A stretch of 35,629 bases of DNA, taken from Methanoregula sp. GTDB taxonomy: Archaea > Halobacteriota > Methanomicrobia > Methanomicrobiales > Methanospirillaceae. Location of the stretch: NCBI GenBank assembly GCA_022711635.1, contig JAKLEQ010000002.1:19248-54876 (forward strand). Direction: 5' to 3'. Below, piece by piece: positions 5,781 through 22,494 of the stretch (positions are counted from its first letter, which is position 1; each line of letters opens with the position of its first letter). Made by a program: the position numbers and the translations under genes. Below the pieces are notes generated by a model. It was not told the DNA's origin. It did not search any database and saw only the letters and a program-made list of their open reading frames with translations.

Positions 5781-5847
5781 CTGCCCTCGCACGGCTCCGT
5801 TCCGATGCCACCTGTCCGGTTCGCCAGTGATCTGATCCAATCGCAGC

Positions 5848-5854
5848 ATATATT
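5848..5854 (+). promoter_or_regulatory. TATA box of the rubrerythrin gene
   Basis: ATATATT is centred about 27 nt before ~5878, giving a predicted leader of 11-17 nt that still contains the GGTGA ribosome site at 5880-5884. This rules out the longer reading frame starting at 5805, which would begin upstream of the TATA box. Confidence 0.6.
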
Positions 5855-5888
5855 GGCACGGGCGATGAAACAGTCCGGCGGTGAACTG

Positions 5889-6467
5889 ATGCCCATGGAG
5901 TTCAAGGGGAGCAGGACGGAGAAGAATGTCCTTGCCGCATTCGCGGGCGAATCGCAGGCGAGAAACCGGTACAGCTTCTTTGCAGGTGTTGCGAGGAAGG
6001 AAGGCTACGAGCAGATCGCGGGGATCTTTGAGGACACTGCGCAGAATGAACGGGAGCATGCAAAGCTCTTCTTTGCAAAATTAAAGGGAGGCGAGGCGGA
6101 GATTACCGCCGCGTACCCGGCCGGGATAATCGGGACGACGAAACACAACCTGCAAGCTGCCGCAGACGGCGAGAAGATGGAATGGGGGACGCTCTACCCG
6201 ACATTTGCAAAGACCGCAGAGGAGGAGGGTTTCAAGGATATCGCGCAGCTCTTCAGACAGGTCGCTAAAGTGGAAGCCCACCATGAGAAACGGTATACAA
6301 CCCTCCATGCAAATATGGAGAAGAACGAGGTCTTTAAAAAAGATGTCCCGTCCCGGTGGCACTGCCGGAACTGCGGCTATGTCTCTGAGGGAAAATCTGC
6401 CCCCATGAAATGCCCGGTCTGCGACCACCCGCTGGCGCATTTCGAGCTGCTTGCAGAAAATTACTGA
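5889..6467 (+). CDS. rbr: Rubrerythrin
   Basis: Non-haem diiron peroxidase that reduces hydrogen peroxide in anaerobes, fed electrons through its own rubredoxin-like domain; cytosolic. The protein is 192 aa from ATG 5889 (or 190 from ATG 5895), normal for the family. The ferritin-like four-helix domain shows iron ligands in [19 protein letters not shown] and EAHHEKRY. The C-terminus carries a rubredoxin-type ribbon with CRNCGY and CPVCDH. The frame is open from 5805, but the TATA box and GGTGA place the start at 5889 or 5895. It probably works with other anaerobic redox-defence genes in the window such as hcp and the flavodoxin. All ligand motifs are present, so it is likely active. Confidence 0.95.
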
Positions 6468-13669: not shown

Positions 13670-14197
13670 TCAGTCCAGATACATAATCCGGAGCAGGCTC
13701 CTGCCGGTCTCCGTCCTGAAGATCCGGTGAAGCACGGATTCTGTCGCTTGTCGTTCCATCTCATCCTCAAAGATGTTGACGAGGAAGTCCGCTTCGACGA
13801 GGACCTGGAAGTCGATCCCGTCAATGTTCGTATAGGTGTGGTGGTTACCGGTGATGAAACAGACCCGGTCGATGATTGAGGGGGCGACACCGAGGTCGGA
13901 AAGGATCTGCCGGGCGATCGGCGGCCCTTCGATCTGCTGGTAATTCCCTGACGTTGAGTTGTATTTCCGCTCTGCTTCGTGGATCCCGATATCGTGGAGG
14001 ATGGCGGTGTATGCAATAATTTCCTGCAGCTCCGTCCCCGGGCATTCACGGGCGGCGATGATTTGGGCGAAGGAGCAGACCTTCAGCGCATGGTTGATCC
14101 TCTTTGCATCGCGCCCGAAGTATGCGATCATCCTCTCCATGACGCGGGAGAACGGAGGCGGCTCAACAGCACCTGTGCAGACCATCGAAGAATTCAA
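13670..14197 (-). CDS. HD-domain phosphohydrolase
   Basis: A 175-aa single HD domain. The metal-binding set is visible: NHALKV (His36), ILHDIGIHEA (His68-Asp69), ITGNHHTY (His119/120) and VEADFLVN (Asp137). Such proteins are metal-dependent phosphohydrolases, often of nucleotides; the substrate is not evident. The frame start at 14197 is a TTG overlapping the TGA of the upstream ferredoxin gene by four bases (TTGA), preceded by a G-rich GAGGGCGGGA. An ATG at 14185 is the alternative. The overlap implies translational coupling as last gene of the DUF4126-ferredoxin-HD operon. The gene converges on the beta-RFAP fusion, with only 20 bp between stops. Confidence 0.85.
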   Translation of the reverse strand: MNSSMVCTGAVEPPPFSRVMERMIAYFGRDAKRINHALKVCSFAQIIAARECPGTELQEIIAYTAILHDIGIHEAERKYNSTSGNYQQIEGPPIARQILSDLGVAPSIIDRVCFITGNHHTYTNIDGIDFQVLVEADFLVNIFEDEMERQATESVLHRIFRTETGRSLLRIMYLD

Positions 14198-15105
14198 GCT
14201 ATCCCGCCCTCGATTGTGATCGTCTTCTCTACAACTGGTATCGCTTTTCCGGATTTCTCCAGCGCCTTGTCAACGACAGCGCGGACGCCGCTGCAGCATG
14301 GCACTTCCATGTGGACGACCATGATCGACCGGATGGCATGGCGCGAGAATATCTCCGCGAGTTTTTCGATATACCCCGGGATATCCAGGTCCAGTTTCGG
14401 GCAGAAGATGATTACGATCCGGCCTTTCAGGAACTCCGGATGAAACCCCCCGTACGCGAACGGCACGCAGTCGGCGGCGATCAGCAGTTCGGCGTTCTCA
14501 AAGTAGGGTGCCGCCGGGTTTAAAAGGCTGAGCTGGACCGGCCATTGCCGGAGCTCTGAATCCGTTGCCCCGACTACCGGCTGCCGGGGTCCTCTGCCGG
14601 GTTCCCGGCGGATTGCCCGTGCTGCCGACCCCGGGCACGCCGCGAAACGGGAGGGATCGGGAGACCCGGGAGGGCAGACGATGCCTTCCCCCACATAGCC
14701 CGCTGCCAATTTACCGGAGGGGGTGGGAGCCGGCGTACGCTCCGGGGGAACATGATTCGGGATCGGGAGACCGTGCTCGATCAGGTACTCGATCGCTTCG
14801 TTGTAGAGCGCCACCTGCCCGTGACCGGCGAGGTGTTCGAGGTGGGCTTTGATGACCGGTGCGCCCTGTTTTACGATGGTTGCCATGACGGCCGCCTCGT
14901 TATAAGGTTCGGCCTCGCGTTCGATAACCGTAATCGCGCCTTCCGGGCATGTCCCGATGCAGGCCCCGAGCCCGTCGCAGAAGAGATCCGAGACGAGCCG
15001 GGCCTTTCCCTCGATCAACTGGAGTGCTCCCTCAGGGCAGTCCGGGATGCATTGGCCGCACCCCGTGCATTTCGTTTCATCGATGCTGATGATCTTCCGT
15101 TTCAT
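14194..15105 (-). CDS. 4Fe-4S ferredoxin-type protein with C-terminal Cys domain
   Basis: A 303-aa iron-sulfur protein. The first cluster motif is canonical, Cys13-x2-Cys16-x2-Cys19-x3-Cys23-Pro. The second reads CDGLGACIGTCPEGA with Leu46 where the second Cys is expected, so only three of four ligands are present. Residues ~105-175 form a Pro/Arg-rich linker. The C-terminal part has scattered Cys (AADCVPF, IIFCPKLD, VPCCSGV) that may bind another cluster or metal. I recall similar proteins beside hybrid-cluster-protein genes in strict anaerobes, but could not verify this. It starts three bases after the DUF4126 stop, with GGAGATGA as ribosome site inside that gene. Likely an electron-transfer component; partner unknown. 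Confidence 0.85.
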   Translation of the reverse strand: MKRKIISIDETKCTGCGQCIPDCPEGALQLIEGKARLVSDLFCDGLGACIGTCPEGAITVIEREAEPYNEAAVMATIVKQGAPVIKAHLEHLAGHGQVALYNEAIEYLIEHGLPIPNHVPPERTPAPTPSGKLAAGYVGEGIVCPPGSPDPSRFAACPGSAARAIRREPGRGPRQPVVGATDSELRQWPVQLSLLNPAAPYFENAELLIAADCVPFAYGGFHPEFLKGRIVIIFCPKLDLDIPGYIEKLAEIFSRHAIRSIMVVHMEVPCCSGVRAVVDKALEKSGKAIPVVEKTITIEGGIA

Positions 15106-15108
15106 TTT

Positions 15109-15696
15109 TCATCTCCGGGTTTCGGTTGTTCTGGGAGTAAGCTTTTTGCGCGACGGGAACTTCCACCGTAATACGAGAAGGATCCCTGCCGTGATGAGAA
15201 GAAGGACGAGGAGGGGTGCCAGTATCGCGACGACGGCCGTTGTCAATGACAGCAGATCTTCGATGAGGCTGACCAGCCAGTTTCCGGTACCTCCGGTTGC
15301 AAGGGTGACTGCAGGACGGGCCGCGACCTTGGCAGCGTGGACGCCCCCGGCGATCAGGAGCCCGGCGATGAAGGACAGCGCCGGGTGGAGTTCTCCCACC
15401 ACGCCGGCGCCGGCGATAAAGAGGATCGCCCCTGCCAGCGGGCGGCCGACAGTCTGGATAATATCGTTGAGAGAATCAACGACCGGGATCTTATCGGCCG
15501 TCATCTCGATGACGAGAAGAACTGCGAGTGCCGCGAGCACCCAGCCGTTCGTCAAAGTGTCCCACGGCTCATTGAGCGGGATGAGGGTCGTAGAGCGGGC
15601 GACCAGCCCGACGACGAGCAATGGCAGGTAAGCATTCAGTCCCGCCGCGACGGAAAGCCCGATGGCGCACGCGATAAGGATGACCGTCTCGATCAT
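15109..15696 (-). CDS. DUF4126-type integral membrane protein
   Basis: A 195-aa protein with about four to five hydrophobic segments (residues ~1-30, 50-65, 85-125, 150-178) and a short basic C-terminus (KFPSRKK). The pattern AAGLNAYLPLL near the start and the Gly/Ala-rich GRPLAGAILF and GGVHAAKV segments fit the DUF4126 family, which has no established function. It is the first gene of an apparent three-gene operon on the minus strand, three bases before the ferredoxin-type gene. AGGTGAT immediately precedes the ATG. Family call is moderately confident. Confidence 0.7.
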   Translation of the reverse strand: MIETVILIACAIGLSVAAGLNAYLPLLVVGLVARSTTLIPLNEPWDTLTNGWVLAALAVLLVIEMTADKIPVVDSLNDIIQTVGRPLAGAILFIAGAGVVGELHPALSFIAGLLIAGGVHAAKVAARPAVTLATGGTGNWLVSLIEDLLSLTTAVVAILAPLLVLLLITAGILLVLRWKFPSRKKLTPRTTETRR

Positions 15697-15796: not shown

Positions 15797-16156
15797 CTAC
15801 AGTACGCAAGCCTTGCAGTCCTGCTGTCCGCAGGGAATGTTGTCGATCTTCCACTTCAGTGCCCAGCGCTTGATGTCCCGGATCACATCGACAATCCCGA
15901 GCCCGCTCTCCGTCAGCGTGTACTCGGAACGGACCGGAAACGCGGTCGCATCAACGTGCCGGATGATGATCCCTTCGTCCTCCAGTTCTTTCAGCCGCTC
16001 CGAGAGGACCTTTGGCGTGATACCATCAAGGGCATCCCGGAGCTCGGTGAACCGCCGGGTATACCCCTCCCCCTTGTACAGCTCGAGGATGATGAGGAGC
16101 GTCCACCGCTTCGAGAGATACCGGACAGTCTTGTTGACCGTGCATGACTCCTGCAT
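15797..16156 (-). CDS. HxlR-family regulator with C-terminal CX4CX2C
   Basis: A 119-aa winged-helix DNA-binding protein, normal length for HxlR. Typical pieces are YLSKRWTLLIILEL, RFTELRDAL, ITPKVLSERLKELE and the wing with EYTLTESG. Cys5 is near the position of the redox Cys of some bacterial HxlR relatives (for example HypR). The C-terminus adds Cys109, Cys114 and Cys117 in CGQQDCKAC. Four Cys could bind an Fe-S cluster or form disulfides. It is divergent from hcp, 87 bp apart, with shared repeats between them. A TATAAATA box (minus strand, 16180-16187) predicts a leaderless transcript starting at about the ATG. It probably controls hcp and itself. Family call secure; sensing role is inference. 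Confidence 0.9.
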   Translation of the reverse strand: MQESCTVNKTVRYLSKRWTLLIILELYKGEGYTRRFTELRDALDGITPKVLSERLKELEDEGIIIRHVDATAFPVRSEYTLTESGLGIVDVIRDIKRWALKWKIDNIPCGQQDCKACVL

Positions 16157-16220
16157 GGTATGGTATTGGTAACTCCTGAATATTTATAATCTGGTATGCT
16201 ATTGATATTTTGTATCAATA
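16156..16220. promoter_or_regulatory. Divergent promoter/operator region of hxlR and hcp
   Basis: A TATA element (TATTTATAAT, 16181-16190) can be read on both strands. Two copies of a 16-bp repeat, TGGTATGGTATTGGTA (16156-16171) and TGGTATGCTATTGATA (16192-16207), match at 14 of 16 positions and are 36 bp apart. The second copy forms the left part of a perfect inverted repeat, TATTGATA-ttttg-TATCAATA (16200-16220). That palindrome covers the predicted hcp start site (~16212). The first repeat overlaps the regulator's own ATG, suggesting autoregulation. Confidence 0.7.
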
Positions 16221-16243
16221 AGAAATCAAATGGAGGATAAACA

Positions 16244-17860
16244 ATGTTCTGTTACCAGTGTGAAGAGACGGCACGAGGGACCGGCTGCACGATCAAGGGC
16301 GTCTGCGGCAAAGAGGAGGAGATCGCCGCATACCAGGACGCGCTCGTCTATCTCTGCAAGGGGCTTTCCGTGCGGAACCTTGCGGCAATGGAGATGGGGA
16401 AGGGCAACCCGGATGCGGGGCTGTTCATCGCGGATGCCCTCTTTGCAACACTGACCAACGTCAACTTCGATAAAGCCCGGTTCACGGAGTTCATCAACAA
16501 CGCCGTTACGATGAGGGATGCGCTCCCAAAGAGCGGCGCCAATGAACCGGATGCCTGCACGTGGAAGCCGAAGGGTGATGCCGATATCCTTGAGAAGGCA
16601 AAAACCGTGGGGATCCTCTCGACCGCCAACGAGGATGTCCGCTCCCTGCGGTCAACGCTCCTCTTCGGCCTCAAGGGGATCTCCGCGTATTATACCCACG
16701 CTGCTGTTCTCGGCAGGACCGATGCGGCGATCGTCACGTTCCTCCAGAAAGGGCTCGCATCCACGATCCGGGACCTGCCGGTCCCTGACATGATCGCGCT
16801 TGTGATGGAGTGCGGGAGCACCGGGGTTAAAGTCCTCGCGTTGCTCGATGAGGCGAACGTAGCTGCGTACGGAAAGCCGCAGATCACCAGCGTGAAGACG
16901 ACAGTCGGGAAGCGACCGGGCATCCTGATTACCGGTCATGACCTGAAGGATCTCGAGATGCTGCTGGAGCAGTCGAAGGATACCGGCGTAGATGTCTACA
17001 CCCACGGCGAGATGCTCCCTGCCCACGGGTACCCTGCGTTCAGTAAATACCCGCACCTTGTCGGCAACTACGGCAGCTCGTGGTGGCACCAGAAGGAGGA
17101 GTTCGAACAGTTCAACGGCCCGGTCCTGTTCACGACCAACTGCCTCGTTCCCCCGAAAGACACCTACAAGGGCCGGCTCTTCACGACCGGCCTGACCGGG
17201 TTTCCGGGTGTCCCGCACATCGCGGCAGGCCCGGGCGGGAAGAAGGATTTCTCGAAGATCATCGCGCTCGCAAAGACCTGCCAGTCGCCAACAGCTCTCC
17301 CCGGCAGCGGGAGCGATATTGTCACCGGCTGTGCCCATGACGCGGTCCTTGCACTTGCCGACACGGTCGTCGGGGCCGTGAAGAAGGGAGACATCAAAAA
17401 GTTCATCGTCATGGCAGGCTGCGACGGCCGGCAGAAGGAGCGGGAGTACTACACCGCATTCGCAAAGGCCCTGCCGAAGGATACGGTCATCCTCACCGCC
17501 GGCTGCGCCAAGTACCGGTACAACAGCCTCGGTCTCGGAACCATCGGGGGTATCCCCCGGGTCCTCGATGCCGGCCAGTGCAACGACTGCTACTCGCTCG
17601 TCGTGATCGCGCAGGCACTGGCAAAAGCGTTCGGCGTCGGGATCAACGAGCTGCCGGTCTCGTACAACATCGCATGGTACGAGCAGAAGGCCGTTCTTGT
17701 GCTCCTCGCCCTCCTCTCGCTCGGGGTAAAGGACATCACGCTCGGCCCCAAGCTCCCGGGCTTCGTCTCCCCTGCCGTCCTCGATGTGCTCGTGAAACAG
17801 TTCGGTCTCAAGCCCAATACCACGGTACAGGCTGACATGGCCCGGATGGTAAAGGCCTGA
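16244..17860 (+). CDS. hcp: Hybrid cluster protein (hydroxylamine reductase)
   Basis: Cytosolic Fe-S/hybrid Fe-S-O cluster enzyme. It reduces hydroxylamine to ammonia in vitro and is linked to nitric oxide and peroxide stress in bacteria. The protein is 538 aa. The N-terminal cluster Cys are Cys3-x2-Cys6-x8-Cys15-x5-Cys21, the pattern of class I Hcp from strict anaerobes. Hybrid-cluster ligand regions appear as ECGSTG, THGEMLPAHGYP, TTNCLVPP, AGCDGR, TAGCAKYRY, DAGQCNDCYS and the EQKAV segment near the end. GGAGG lies seven bases before the ATG. It is divergent from an HxlR regulator whose likely operators overlap the start site. All expected motifs seem present, so it is probably functional. 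Confidence 0.97.
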   Translation: MFCYQCEETARGTGCTIKGVCGKEEEIAAYQDALVYLCKGLSVRNLAAMEMGKGNPDAGLFIADALFATLTNVNFDKARFTEFINNAVTMRDALPKSGANEPDACTWKPKGDADILEKAKTVGILSTANEDVRSLRSTLLFGLKGISAYYTHAAVLGRTDAAIVTFLQKGLASTIRDLPVPDMIALVMECGSTGVKVLALLDEANVAAYGKPQITSVKTTVGKRPGILITGHDLKDLEMLLEQSKDTGVDVYTHGEMLPAHGYPAFSKYPHLVGNYGSSWWHQKEEFEQFNGPVLFTTNCLVPPKDTYKGRLFTTGLTGFPGVPHIAAGPGGKKDFSKIIALAKTCQSPTALPGSGSDIVTGCAHDAVLALADTVVGAVKKGDIKKFIVMAGCDGRQKEREYYTAFAKALPKDTVILTAGCAKYRYNSLGLGTIGGIPRVLDAGQCNDCYSLVVIAQALAKAFGVGINELPVSYNIAWYEQKAVLVLLALLSLGVKDITLGPKLPGFVSPAVLDVLVKQFGLKPNTTVQADMARMVKA

Positions 17861-17923: not shown

Positions 17924-18292
17924 ATGACACCATCCAAGCCGGAAGAGGGGGAAGGAACCGCCGATAAGAAACGCGAGGCGCTCGCAGGAAGAGTCCTCAC
18001 CGTCAACGACCTCGTCCAGTACCAGGATGGGACCGTCGCAAGCCGCATGCTCGTCTTTAAAAAGACCGGCACCATCACCCTCTTTGCGTTCGATGCCGGG
18101 GAAGGGCTCTCCGAGCATTCAGCGCCATTCGATGCGGTCCTTTCCGTCACCGACGGCATCGCTGATGTCGCGATCGCGGGGGAGTGGTTTATGGTAAAAA
18201 GCGGGGAGATGATCATTCTTCCGGCGAACAAGCCGCACGCGATCTCCGCAAAAGAGCGGTTCAAGATGACGCTGACCATGATCCGGGAGTGA
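17924..18292 (+). CDS. Cupin-domain protein
   Basis: A 122-aa single-domain cupin. The first motif region contains GEGLSEHSAPFDAVLSV and the second GEMIILPANKPHAISA, giving His in each half and the usual Gly/Pro pattern. In this form one metal ligand of the classical set seems absent, so metal content is uncertain. Small cupins act as sensors, isomerases or dioxygenases; nothing here specifies which. The ATG lies 63 bp after hcp, and two small Cys-rich genes follow at once, so the three form a tight unit, possibly co-expressed with hcp. Confidence 0.8.
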   Translation: MTPSKPEEGEGTADKKREALAGRVLTVNDLVQYQDGTVASRMLVFKKTGTITLFAFDAGEGLSEHSAPFDAVLSVTDGIADVAIAGEWFMVKSGEMIILPANKPHAISAKERFKMTLTMIRE

Positions 18293-18939: not shown

Positions 18940-21900
18940 ATGGCGGCGCCCATCCACGCCTTCCTTGTCGATAACGACCCCGGCCTCCTCGACATGACCC
19001 GCGGATTCCTCGAAGAGTCGGGAGGATTCCGGATCACCACCTCAACGTCCGCAGGGGAGGCACTCGCGCATCCCGCCTGCCAGTCCTGCGACGTCATCGT
19101 CTCCGGCCACCGCACGCCGGGTATAGACGGGATCGCGTTTCTTAAAAGGGTCCGGCAACAGTCCGGGGATCTCCCCTTCATTCTCTTCACTGGAAACAGC
19201 GGTGAGGAGGTCCTGATCGATGCCATCAACAACGGGGCTGACTACTTTCTCCGGAAAGGTGCGGACCCATCTACACAGCTGGCAGATCTTGCGCAGGTGA
19301 TCCGGCAGGCTGTTGCGAGAAGCGAAGCGTGGCGCAGCCGCCCTTCTCCGAAAAGAAAGGGAGGCCCCGATGGGGCCGGCAGACGGGGAGATGAGAAATA
19401 CCAGGATCTGGCGGATCTCCTGCCCCAGGCGGTCTTCGAACTTGACCCGGACTTCAGGGTGACGTATGTAAACCGGTACGCCCGGAGCACCTTCGGGATC
19501 ACGGACGGGGAACTTGCTGAAGGGATCAGCGGGCTCGATTTCATCGATCCTGCCGACCACAGGAGGCTTAAGGAAAACGTCCGCAGGCACCTGCAGGGGA
19601 CGCCAGGGGAGCCGGAGGCATATACTGCAATCCGAAGGGACGGCAGGTTGTTTCCGGTTATCATCTATGCGGTGCCGGTGTTCCAGGGTCCGGTTCTGAC
19701 CGGCTACCGCGGGGTAATGGTCGATATCACTGCCCGGAAAGCGATCGAAGACGATCTGCGGGAGAGCGAGAGAAAATTCCGGAGCATCTTCGAAAACAGT
19801 CCCTATCCCGTCGCGATCAACAGCTTTCCGGATAACGAGTTCCTTGAGGTCAACAAGGCGTTCCTGGATGTCAGCGGCTATACGCCGGAAGAAGTGTACG
19901 GAAAGAATCCGGTCGAGATGGGGCTCCTCTCGTATACCGACGCTGCAAAACTCGTTGCCCGGCGGGTGCTGTCAGGAAAGATCGAGAACGTGCCGCTCGC
20001 GCTGACTGCAAAGGAGGGGCGGCGGGTCCATGTCATCTTCTCCTCCATGCCGATCTCGATCAACAACATCCCTGCGACGATAACGGTGACGGCCGAAGTC
20101 ACGAAACTCCGACGGATAGAAGAGGAATTGATCGGGAAGAACGCGGAACTCAATACCGCGTACGAGGAACTGGCCAGGATCAACGCCGAGCTCCGGCAGC
20201 AGTACAATGAACTCAGCCGGAAAGAGGACGTCCTTAAAGAGAGCGAAGAGAAATTCCGAGCCCTCGTCGAGCTCGCTCTCGACGGGATCCTGATCGCGGA
20301 CTTTTCCGGCACCGTCCTCTTTGCGAACCGCGCCACCGGCCTGATTGTCGATATTCCGGAATACAAGACGATCCCGGGGAAGAACGTCTTTACCTTTATC
20401 GCCCCGGAGTCCCGCAATGACGTGCTGACCGACGTTTCAAAAGTATCGCAGGGGATCGACGCATACCTCACCCTCTACAAGATCATCACGGCGAATAACC
20501 GGGAAATCTGGGTGGAATGCATCGGCAAGAAGATTGCCTTCGGGGAGGGATCCGCCATCCTCGTCTCCCTGCGGGATGTGACGGACCGCAAGAAGGCCGA
20601 AGAGGCGGTCCGTGAATCGGAGAACCGGTTTGCCACGGTCTTCCGGTCAAACCCGGTCGCCATGACGCTCGTCTCTGCGACGGACGGGGTATTCATCGAT
20701 GTCAACGATGCTTTTGTGCAGAACACCGGGTACTCCCGCGAGGAAACCGTTGGGACCGTCGCGGAAAAACTCGGGCTCTTTGCCGACAATGACGAACACC
20801 GCAAGTTTGTCTCTTCCCTGCGTGACCAGCGGACGATCCACGGGATGGAGATACGGTGCAGGACCAAATCCGGCATCGTCCGGACCTGCCTCTTTTCCTC
20901 CGGCATCATCATGATGAGCGGAAAGCCCCACATCCTTTCCAGTGTCGAGGATATCACCGAACGGAAGACCACGGAAGCGGCGATCCAGGCAATCATCCAG
21001 AGCATGGTAGGGACAACCGGCCTCAATTCCCTCCGTAAGATTACGGAAAGTGTCAGTTCCTGGCTCTCGGCAGAATGCGTCATCGTCGGGGAGATCCAGC
21101 CGGACAACCAGACGGTTACCGCCCTGTCCATGATCCTTGACGGGAAAGACGTCCGCGGTTTCTCCTACGCGCTGAAAGGGACGCCCTGCGAGAACGTGGC
21201 GATGAAAGGGTACTGCCTGTACCCCGACAAGGCACAGGATCTCTTCCCGCAGAGCAGGGACATCACCGATCTGAAGATGCGGGCATACACCGGCACACCG
21301 CTGCGGGATTCCCGGGGGAATGTTATCGGGATCCTGTGTGCCCTCTCCCGTAAACCGTTCAAGCCTTCCCCGACAATGAGGGAGATCCTCGATGTCATCG
21401 CCACAAAAGCGGCCGCCGAGGTCGAGCGTATCCGGATCGAACGGGACCTATGGCAGAGCCGCCGGATGCTTGTCGAGGCGATGGACCTTGCCCAGCTGGT
21501 GAACTGGGAGTACGACACGGTAAGGGGGATGTTTACGTTCGATGACCGGTTCTATTCCCTGTATGGTACGACCGTGGAACGCGAAGGCGCTCAGATGTCG
21601 GCAGCCGCATACGAACGGGAATTCATCCCACCGGAGGAGCAGGGTATCGTTACCCGGGAGATCGCGAAGGCGGAAGCTGCGGCAGACCCCGGGTATGTCT
21701 CCCGGCTGGAACACCGTATCGTACGCAGGGACGGCAAGGTCAGGAACATTGTTGTCAACATCGGAATCACCAAGGACGCCGAAGGCCGGACCGTCAAGAC
21801 TCACGGGGCAAACCAGGATGTCACGGATCGAAAGAGGGCGGAAGAGGCTATCCGCCGGGCGAACCTCCAGCTCAACCTTCTCGGCAGAATCACCCGCCAC

Positions 21901-22494
21901 GACATCGTTAACAAGATCTCGATCATCCTCGGCTACCTCAGGATCGCCGAGATGAAATTCCCGGATCCCGAGCTTATTGGCCTGCTGAAGAAAATTGAAG
22001 ACAACACGGGAATGATACGGTCGCAGATCGAATTCACCCGGGTCTACCGGGATCTCGGCACGCACGAGCCGCAGTGGCTGGAGCTCGCCGGCATTTTCTC
22101 CCGTCTGCAGGCTCCGGAGGGGATAACACTCGTCACCGATTCGGGGGAATGGTCAGTCTTTGCCGATCCCATGCTTCCGAAGGTCTTCGAAAACCTCCTC
22201 GATAACTCGGTCCGGCATGGGGAGAAGGTGACAGAGATCCGTGTCTCCGCGGCGCCGTCGGCCACCAGTCTTGTTATCCTGTGGGAGGACAACGGGGTCG
22301 GTATCCCCCGTGAGATGAAGGAAAGGATCTTCGAGCAGGGCGTGGGAAAGAACACCGGGCTCGGGATGTTCCTGACAAAGGAGATCCTGTCCTTAACCGG
22401 CATATCGATTGGCGAAACCGGGGAACCCGGGACAGGGGCACGGTTCGAGATCACCGTGCCAAAGGATATGTTCAGGGCAGTCCGGGAATCCTGA
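18940..22494 (+). CDS. Hybrid sensor histidine kinase with pseudo-receiver, five PAS and a GAF
   Basis: An 1184-aa cytosolic sensor kinase. Residues 1-130 form a receiver-like domain with acidic pocket (LVDNDPG), Thr in FTGNSGE and Lys in FLRKG, but the phosphoacceptor position reads VIVSGHRTPG: Gly56 replaces Asp, so it cannot be phosphorylated there. PAS domains follow at ~152-268, 272-395, 440-552, 560-675 and 845-965, with a coiled-coil stretch ~395-440 and a GAF at ~680-835. The kinase core has RITRHD (His987), NLLDNSVRHG, EDNGVGIP and GLGMFLTKEIL. Its core strongly resembles that of the kinase at the window start, implying a shared ancestor. No output domain is present. Signal and partner are unknown. 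Confidence 0.95.
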   Translation: MAAPIHAFLVDNDPGLLDMTRGFLEESGGFRITTSTSAGEALAHPACQSCDVIVSGHRTPGIDGIAFLKRVRQQSGDLPFILFTGNSGEEVLIDAINNGADYFLRKGADPSTQLADLAQVIRQAVARSEAWRSRPSPKRKGGPDGAGRRGDEKYQDLADLLPQAVFELDPDFRVTYVNRYARSTFGITDGELAEGISGLDFIDPADHRRLKENVRRHLQGTPGEPEAYTAIRRDGRLFPVIIYAVPVFQGPVLTGYRGVMVDITARKAIEDDLRESERKFRSIFENSPYPVAINSFPDNEFLEVNKAFLDVSGYTPEEVYGKNPVEMGLLSYTDAAKLVARRVLSGKIENVPLALTAKEGRRVHVIFSSMPISINNIPATITVTAEVTKLRRIEEELIGKNAELNTAYEELARINAELRQQYNELSRKEDVLKESEEKFRALVELALDGILIADFSGTVLFANRATGLIVDIPEYKTIPGKNVFTFIAPESRNDVLTDVSKVSQGIDAYLTLYKIITANNREIWVECIGKKIAFGEGSAILVSLRDVTDRKKAEEAVRESENRFATVFRSNPVAMTLVSATDGVFIDVNDAFVQNTGYSREETVGTVAEKLGLFADNDEHRKFVSSLRDQRTIHGMEIRCRTKSGIVRTCLFSSGIIMMSGKPHILSSVEDITERKTTEAAIQAIIQSMVGTTGLNSLRKITESVSSWLSAECVIVGEIQPDNQTVTALSMILDGKDVRGFSYALKGTPCENVAMKGYCLYPDKAQDLFPQSRDITDLKMRAYTGTPLRDSRGNVIGILCALSRKPFKPSPTMREILDVIATKAAAEVERIRIERDLWQSRRMLVEAMDLAQLVNWEYDTVRGMFTFDDRFYSLYGTTVEREGAQMSAAAYEREFIPPEEQGIVTREIAKAEAAADPGYVSRLEHRIVRRDGKVRNIVVNIGITKDAEGRTVKTHGANQDVTDRKRAEEAIRRANLQLNLLGRITRHDIVNKISIILGYLRIAEMKFPDPELIGLLKKIEDNTGMIRSQIEFTRVYRDLGTHEPQWLELAGIFSRLQAPEGITLVTDSGEWSVFADPMLPKVFENLLDNSVRHGEKVTEIRVSAAPSATSLVILWEDNGVGIPREMKERIFEQGVGKNTGLGMFLTKEILSLTGISIGETGEPGTGARFEITVPKDMFRAVRES

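Follow-up and report, generated by a model that had tools for sequence, protein, structure and literature searches.

What controls hcp, the gene for hybrid cluster protein (Hcp, an enzyme of nitric oxide and hydroxylamine), in methanogenic archaea, and could the small regulator gene that faces it in Methanoregula be the answer? We have examined this question in a stretch of 35,629 nucleotides from Methanoregula sp. (GenBank assembly GCA_022711635.1, contig JAKLEQ010000002.1, positions 19,248 to 54,876 of the forward strand; hereafter the window), in which a gene for a regulator of the HxlR family (hxlR) and a class I hcp are divergent, their start codons facing each other across 87 bp. A preliminary description, made from the letters of the window, had pointed out this pair together with four cysteines in the regulator, and had proposed that the protein may bind an Fe-S cluster and control hcp. 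In bacteria, hcp genes are under HcpR, NsrR, NorR or DNR and often stand beside a ferredoxin-like gene, frdX, in hcp-frdX operons; archaeal hcp genes are included in the tree of the same work, which mentions no regulator from archaea where it treats the regulation of hcp (PMC1274295). Our comparison indicates that the pair is a conserved regulatory unit in the HxlR family, real and apparently undescribed.

A group of HxlR regulators with four invariant cysteines

The regulator matched only PF01638 in Pfam (E 0.001 or better), with 76.8 bits against a cut-off of 20.8 (E 1.2e-21). Its reading frame does encode the four residues Cys5, Cys109, Cys114 and Cys117, the last three forming a CX4CX2C that ends two residues short of the C-terminus (sequence end NIPCGQQDCKACVL). 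The product of the facing gene is a full-length Hcp that matched NF003658 (E 4e-239) and TIGR01703 (E 3e-212), both far over the cut-off, as well as PF03063. Class I Hcp proteins have the N-terminal cubane motif CX2CX7-8CX5C, and a CX2CX8CX5C at Cys3, 6, 15 and 21 places this one among them. Both premises of the preliminary description, the cysteines and the divergence from a class I hcp, were thus correct.

Orthologs were counted in 149 genomes, the window's own (G000) and its relatives, with thresholds of E 1e-43 for hxlR and about 1e-20 for hcp among the best matches listed; a broken hxlR of 47 residues in G067 and remnants of hcp in G092, G028, G034 and G035 were left out. There were 81 hxlR copies in 76 of these genomes, at least 61% identical over the full length, and the next listed matches reached at most 46%. 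A scan of contigs from GTDB species gave 79 loci, 73 of them (L033-L105) with a full or nearly full-length ortholog. Outside the 73, L106 and L107 are bacterial relatives (the former ends without CX4CX2C, and the match to the latter stops at residue 102), L108 and L109 hold C-terminal ortholog pieces only, and L110 and L111 are weak matches. Fifty-one of the 73 loci are labelled Methanomicrobiales (five named families). Most of the remainder come from Methanomassiliicoccales and other Thermoplasmatota, and a single record is of Methanothrix. Two loci counted in the 51, L103 and L105 (“methanogenic archaeon”), resemble the Thermoplasmatota branch by sequence. With a profile search the ortholog turned up in 92 of the phylum's 344 genomes (54 of these from other orders), and the group is present in two archaeal phyla.

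The four cysteines were invariant in 49 of 49 aligned orthologs, which are 46–86% identical to the window protein. They were also kept in all 125 distinct orthologs (146 copies, lowest identity 43%), a count that describes orthologs picked by overall similarity, since the selection excluded matches that had less than 40% identity, had E >1e-20 or were incomplete at the 5' end. The check suggested in the preliminary description, i.e., conservation of the C-terminal cysteines in hcp-linked homologs, therefore came out in its favor. Among 40 HxlR paralogs (39 from relatives, one from G000) an equivalent of Cys5 was found in all 40, within three residues of the aligned place, and CX4CX2C in none, which indicates that Cys5 is ordinary for the family and that the C-terminal motif is the mark of the group. 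In a FastTree reconstruction the orthologs fell on one side of a branch separating them from the 40 paralogs (local support 89, from few columns and with long branches). Cys5 is followed by Thr6-Val7 in all 49 aligned orthologs, and in 22 copies from other families Cys-Thr-Ile, Cys-Thr-Leu, Cys-Ile-Val and Cys-Ala-Ile also appear at this place. A separate group of HxlR paralogs in the same genomes (L157, L162, L165, L170, L172 and others) has a C-terminal cysteine pattern of approximately C-X3-C-X4-C.

Linkage of the regulator with hcp

Both genes were present in 74 of the 149 genomes, hxlR alone in two, hcp alone in three and neither in 70 (Fisher p 4e-36, uncorrected for shared descent). The hcp-only genomes include G066, where hcp starts 15 bases from the contig end, and G136, with a 90-residue piece. 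In the regulator-only genome G034 (L017) the hcp start beside hxlR is broken after about 30 residues, cupin and NIR_SIR (nitrite/sulfite reductase-type) genes follow on the other side of hxlR, and the regulator has been kept together with degenerate sites. As many as 71 of the 81 copies are divergent from hcp at less than 200 bp, 67 of these at 82–91 bp, and on the named contigs a divergent hcp sequence lies within 200 bp of hxlR in 61 of the 73 loci. The remaining 12 include the contig ends L084 and L101, and L092, where hcp starts at the contig end (by eye only). In L077 and L079 (and L080, judging by its gap) ABC-transporter genes lie between hxlR and a divergent hcp-like gene about 4.3 kb off. 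A chance association can be rejected on the strength of the 71 divergent copies, the co-occurrence and the conserved palindromes described below.

Some loci show how the pair has been disturbed. The hcp sequence adjacent to hxlR in L102 is a duplicated 5' piece only, with the full gene 887 bp away; in this locus and L013, both from Methanocalculus, a two-gene cassette (85 and 92 aa, RelB/RelE-like by eye; L102:4281-4807) separates the hxlR promoter with its duplicated hcp piece from the full hcp. Isolated breaks in the hcp reading frame of single genomes (L062, L076 and L197) look like assembly errors or decay.

Conserved palindromes in the shared promoter

The space between the two genes follows a fixed plan. 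Reading from hxlR to hcp there are the start codon of the regulator, a palindrome O1 (GTATC-N6-GAAAC), a TATA-like TATTTATA, two further palindromes O2 and O3 (GTATC-N5-GATAC), a GGAG and the hcp start. With up to two mismatches, O1 was found in 111, O2 in 97 and O3 in 69 of 124 distinct upstream regions, compared to about 0.7, 0.9 and 0.6, respectively, in shuffled sequences. The best distance between O2 and O3 was 18 bp in 104 of these regions, and a loose TATA-like pattern stood at the expected place in 100 (a figure without a control set). The consensus of O2 and O3 was derived from hcp promoters, so the fairest test of these two sites is given by copies without an adjacent hcp; that of O1 was written with hcp and NIR_SIR promoters both in view. 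Among 18 listed copies of this kind, and with the same tolerance, O1 and O2 were each found in 15 and O3 in only six, suggesting that O1 and O2 are general and that O3 belongs mainly to hcp promoters.

The O2-O3 pair is the sole tandem of its type in the window at a summed mismatch of up to five, so none stands before the neighboring genes for a DUF4126 protein and a 4Fe-4S protein. Allowing up to three mismatches, the tandem occurred at 49 places in 42 of the 149 genomes, 31 of them at hxlR/hcp promoters (28 genomes) and 18 elsewhere. All nine tandems with no mismatch or one were located at hxlR/hcp promoters, for which reason the system looks local rather than global. One off-hcp tandem with two mismatches (G013 C31) was discarded as an operator, being inside a long reading frame and not in a promoter.

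The sites have also been found where regulator and target are apart. A perfect tandem precedes hcp in G093, with hxlR 1.5 kb off, and in G147 C5 a tandem (four mismatches in sum) has been kept before an hcp 4.4 kb away. The gap between the two genes in L015 (G099), shorter than that of L102, is 602 bp, and a tandem with four mismatches in sum stands at each end. In G143 and G040 the two genes are on different contigs; a tandem (sum four) stands at hxlR in both, and hcp has just one site, with two mismatches in G143 and one in G040. The conserved divergence, the conserved promoter palindromes and the sites that in some genomes stayed with hcp after hxlR had moved make the control of hcp by this regulator, which the preliminary description had suggested, a well supported prediction from sequence comparison.

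Other targets of the group

The pairing with hcp, which the preliminary description took as the setting of the regulator, holds for most copies in the 149 genomes, but other archaeal families often pair the regulator with a NIR_SIR operon instead. Regions were sampled from 20 of the 54 genomes of other orders (22 copies, with the four cysteines kept in all of them), and the divergent gene was hcp in four, NIR_SIR in 12, DUF166 in three, cupin in one, CGGC in one and unrecognized in one. DUF166 is followed by NIR_SIR in L225 and L226. The NIR_SIR proteins that were scanned (two from L235 and one each from L226 and L017) have siroheme and ferredoxin-like domains; in NCBIfam the best match was to NirB, over the part that corresponds to them (E 1e-52, under the cut-off set for the whole protein), and the best solved relatives were nitrite reductases and F420-dependent sulfite reductase. 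Genes for CGGC and for a relative of the 4Fe-4S protein of the window follow on the same strand, joined in some loci by a cupin gene. Targets have switched between hcp and other genes in at least four steps on the tree.

Cupin genes were found near 35 of 93 hxlR loci, and relatives of the 4Fe-4S protein of the window near 27, often directly 3' of hxlR or in the NIR_SIR operon; both are raw counts, without control neighborhoods. No relative of the DUF4126 protein was found near any of the 93 (E 1e-6). A TM_HPP gene lies downstream of hcp in L098, L099, L100, L104 and L105, on the Thermoplasmatota branch, and is itself the divergent gene in L103. Some plant relatives of TM_HPP are nitrite transporters. 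The common thread of these targets is the reduction of nitrite, NO, hydroxylamine or sulfite, of which the first three fit Hcp best.

A more diverged extra copy of the regulator (43% identity) in L241:1-4916 is divergent from a CGGC gene and adjoins genes that by eye resemble methylamine methyltransferases. In L096:3973-4932 an ACR3-like gene of the arsenite-efflux type (E 7e-31, below the cut-off) ends just upstream of hxlR, with no hcp in view.

A possible mechanism and its alternatives

The AlphaFold monomer of the regulator has a mean pLDDT of 87.3 and the HxlR fold, with helix 1 at residues 6–15 and helix 5 at 83–105; confidence is moderate over the last 19 residues (block means of 77 and 67). 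The best Foldseek matches include YodB, QsrR, HypR and HxlR, along with many other structures of the family. YodB has its Cys6 where helix 1 begins, and this residue is paired across the dimer with Cys101 (PMC8063818); by analogy, Cys5 could come together with the C-terminal tail where the two subunits touch.

The reading that we favor, by a small balance of probability, is that of a local, self-controlling repressor of anaerobic archaea with a four-cysteine, likely Fe-S, site that responds to nitrogen-oxide or related redox stress. The dimer would bind the palindromes over the hxlR start (O1) and over the stretch from just after the TATA box to about the hcp transcription start (O2 and O3). 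The transcription starts are placed here by archaeal promoter rules, and the presumed TATA box common to both genes by its position. As the sites overlap both the hxlR start and the TATA-to-hcp-start stretch, the bound dimer would most likely keep both genes off, including its own. Where the subunits meet, Cys5 and the C-terminal CX4CX2C would together supply the four thiolates of a single site, most likely for an Fe-S cluster, although four invariant cysteines are compatible with a cluster, zinc or a thiol switch and do not by themselves single out one of them. NO, or else nitrite, hydroxylamine or another oxidant, would damage this site and the DNA would be released. Hcp, or in other families the siroheme nitrite/sulfite reductase-type enzyme with its ferredoxin, would then be made and remove the stress. 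The protein family, the four invariant cysteines, the linkage, the conserved sites and the change of target are established by sequence, and repression, the metal, the signal and the common TATA box are inferred.

Several observations weigh against this reading. The sites of the window are degenerate, with two mismatches each, and its genome has no tandem within three mismatches. Of the 18 off-target tandems, 17 have three mismatches; a control with the reversed pattern matched only two of the 149 genomes, fewer than these 18 places, so the control was perhaps a lenient one and true sites may be among them. We found no site before an hcp 4.3 kb distant (G109) or a separate one (G033), and no tandem before the second hcp copies of G026 C25, G046 C205, G129, G147 C1, G114, G134, G124 and G143 C2 or the hcp of G056 C42, several tandem-less copies carrying isolated single matches with one or two mismatches. 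Since sites stay before some hcp genes and are absent or weak before others, only some of them seem to belong to the regulator. Likewise, no hcp is in view at the hxlR of L069, L078, L090, L091, L096 and L103. The four-cysteine site is not seen in the structural model, which is a monomer with a tail of moderate confidence, and the sequence data fit zinc or bare thiols as well as the cluster that the site probably holds. The natural signal is also uncertain, as Methanothermococcus is reported to produce its Hcp on ammonium, with neither nitrite nor NO added (PMC10210160).

We think it unlikely, without dismissing it, that the regulator is a metal-free thiol-disulfide switch like YodB, in which Cys5 and one C-terminal cysteine of the other subunit would form a disulfide under oxidants or electrophiles, the other cysteines being resolving or spare. 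Its closest solved relatives include the thiol-switch regulators YodB, QsrR and HypR, its best NCBIfam matches, although below the cut-off, are the redox regulators RrpB and RrpA, and Cys5 is the common reactive cysteine of such proteins (PMC8063818, PMC6943732). However, YodB works with two cysteines, and here three C-terminal ones at a fixed spacing in 125 of 125 proteins would each want a job; besides, the paralogs keep the N-terminal cysteine without CX4CX2C.

Activation of hcp instead of repression is a rival on the sign only, and overlaps with the readings of the sensor. Some HxlR-like proteins, such as ChlR and HxlR of Bacillus subtilis, are described as activators (PMC4500134, PMC7835342), and O1, upstream of the TATA box from the viewpoint of hcp, is the best preserved of the sites where the target is another gene. 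We consider it rather unlikely, as O2 and O3 follow the likely TATA box in the direction of hcp and O1 sits on the hxlR start, positions predicted to block initiation.

A zinc site, in which the four cysteines would stabilize the dimer tail or sense metal, or the loss of zinc by thiol oxidation, seems improbable to us. Four cysteine thiolates can bind zinc, and no part of the model is less certain than the tail. On the other hand, no replacement of cysteine by His or Asp was found in the 125 distinct proteins; invariant cysteines without such replacements are more usual of Fe-S clusters or redox thiols than of zinc sites, a weak argument. The neighbors recognized in the examined loci are reductases, ferredoxin-like proteins, cupin and CGGC and no metal transporters, with the exception of the ACR3-like gene of L096.

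A sensor of formaldehyde or other aldehydes, like HxlR of B. subtilis, would suit methanogens, which handle C1 compounds, and belongs to the same family. It is nevertheless very improbable: the B. subtilis protein requires Cys11 and Lys13 in a CEK (PMC7835342), and this Cys-x-Lys is absent here (Thr6-Val7 follow Cys5 in the 49 aligned orthologs, and the 22 copies outside the order have no Lys there), nor was any formaldehyde enzyme recognized as an adjacent target in the examined loci. That hxlR is merely carried beside hcp, exerting no control, is scarcely credible, for linkage alone can be inherited but palindromes at fixed spacing recur in two archaeal phyla, also before other targets and before some hcp genes without a neighboring hxlR.

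Comparison with known regulators

The thiol switches of Firmicutes YodB, QsrR and HypR (HxlR-DUF24) share with this group the fold, the family and a conserved N-terminal cysteine at the start of helix 1, and in the YodB dimer the C-terminal cysteine is likewise near the N-terminal one (PMC8063818). The archaeal group differs from them in its invariant CX4CX2C tail, its hosts, its hcp and NIR_SIR targets and a defined set of GTATC-N5-GATAC operators. RrpB and RrpA, classed in NCBIfam as MarR family transcription factors (redox_TF), matched at E 2e-13 and 5e-11, with scores far below the curated cut-offs (50.6 of 175 and 42.9 of 185 bits). HxlR of B. subtilis has the family and the N-terminal cysteine in common with the window protein, without its formaldehyde-linked pair being found here.

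As for the cluster, the cyanobacterial ChlR is a small MarR/HxlR-like regulator with a reported oxygen-sensitive [4Fe-4S] cluster and, in one subtype, four conserved cysteines; it activates tetrapyrrole genes (PMC4500134). The likeness is one of description. The ligands proposed for ChlR are two N-terminal cysteines in a Cys-X4-6-Cys-Pro (PMC4500134), in contrast to one N-terminal and three C-terminal cysteines in the window protein, whose single N-terminal cysteine is followed by Thr-Val.

NsrR, which senses NO by an Fe-S cluster, belongs to Rrf2, and HcpR to CRP/FNR. Like the group described here they control hcp and nitrogen-oxide genes, with linkage of hcp to ferredoxin genes in the cases treated by PMC1274295. 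Membership in either family can be rejected: the window protein has 119 aa and only PF01638, with no Rrf2 domain at E 0.001 in Pfam and neither a cNMP-type sensor nor a CRP helix-turn-helix.

Other features of the window

The features of the locus are listed in Table 1. The 4Fe-4S dicluster protein is a possible electron donor of Hcp. A rubrerythrin gene (NF045767), coding for an oxidative-stress protein, is located at 5805-6467 of the window, about 9 kb off, with no tandem site nearby, and a gene for a 1184-aa histidine kinase with a receiver, several PAS domains and one GAF domain (18940-22494) lies close to the 3' side of the hcp and cupin genes.

Table 1. Coordinates of genes and putative regulatory elements around hxlR and hcp (positions in the window).
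Feature	Position	Strand	Basis
4Fe-4S dicluster protein	14194..15105	minus	Pfam, NCBIfam
DUF4126 membrane protein, between hxlR and the 4Fe-4S gene	15109..15696	minus	Pfam
hxlR, four-cysteine HxlR regulator, 119 aa, ATG start	15797..16156	minus	ORF, PF01638
Codons of Cys109-Cys117, C-terminal CX4CX2C	15806..15832	minus	sequence, alignment
Codon of Cys5, common N-terminal cysteine of HxlR proteins, start of helix 1	16142..16144	minus	sequence, alignment
Putative operator O1, GTATG-N6-GTAAC, two mismatches to GTATC-N6-GAAAC, adjoins the hxlR start codon	16158..16173	unstranded	motif comparison
TATTTATAA, likely TATA box common to both promoters	16181..16189	unstranded	inferred from place
Putative operator O2, GTATG-N5-GATAT, two mismatches to GTATC-N5-GATAC	16194..16208	unstranded	motif comparison
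Putative operator O3, GTATC-N5-GAAAT, two mismatches, 18 bp from O2	16212..16226	unstranded	motif comparison
GGAGG, likely hcp ribosome-binding site	16232..16236	plus	read directly
hcp, class I-type hybrid cluster protein / hydroxylamine reductase, 538 aa	16244..17860	plus	profile matches
Cupin protein, downstream of hcp	17924..18292	plus	Pfam

Significance

The arrangement had been thought new for archaea in the preliminary description. We found no description of a four-cysteine HxlR regulator in the titles and abstract openings of the open-licence papers that our searches listed, nor of an HxlR linked to hcp in archaea, and to this extent the claim stands; an Fe-S cluster in an HxlR-like regulator, by contrast, has a precedent in ChlR (PMC4500134). 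Somewhat short of an even chance, we would tentatively see in this regulator a widespread archaeal sensor of NO or nitrosative stress of a new design, a counterpart of NsrR and HcpR in methanogens, in which an HxlR dimer would hold the Fe-S cluster by Cys5 and CX4CX2C, possibly across subunits, and govern a switchable regulon of Hcp or of a small siroheme nitrite reductase with a ferredoxin. Nitrite matters to these organisms because methyl-coenzyme M reductase (Mcr) is described as nitrite-sensitive (PMC9295563). With a dedicated regulator, a defined set of operators and recurring neighbors (ferredoxin-like, siroheme-reductase and cupin genes) in a large archaeal group, the inducer and the electron donor of Hcp in methanogens can be approached directly. 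Should an Fe-S cluster prove to occupy the four-cysteine site, the HxlR family would gain a sensor of new design.

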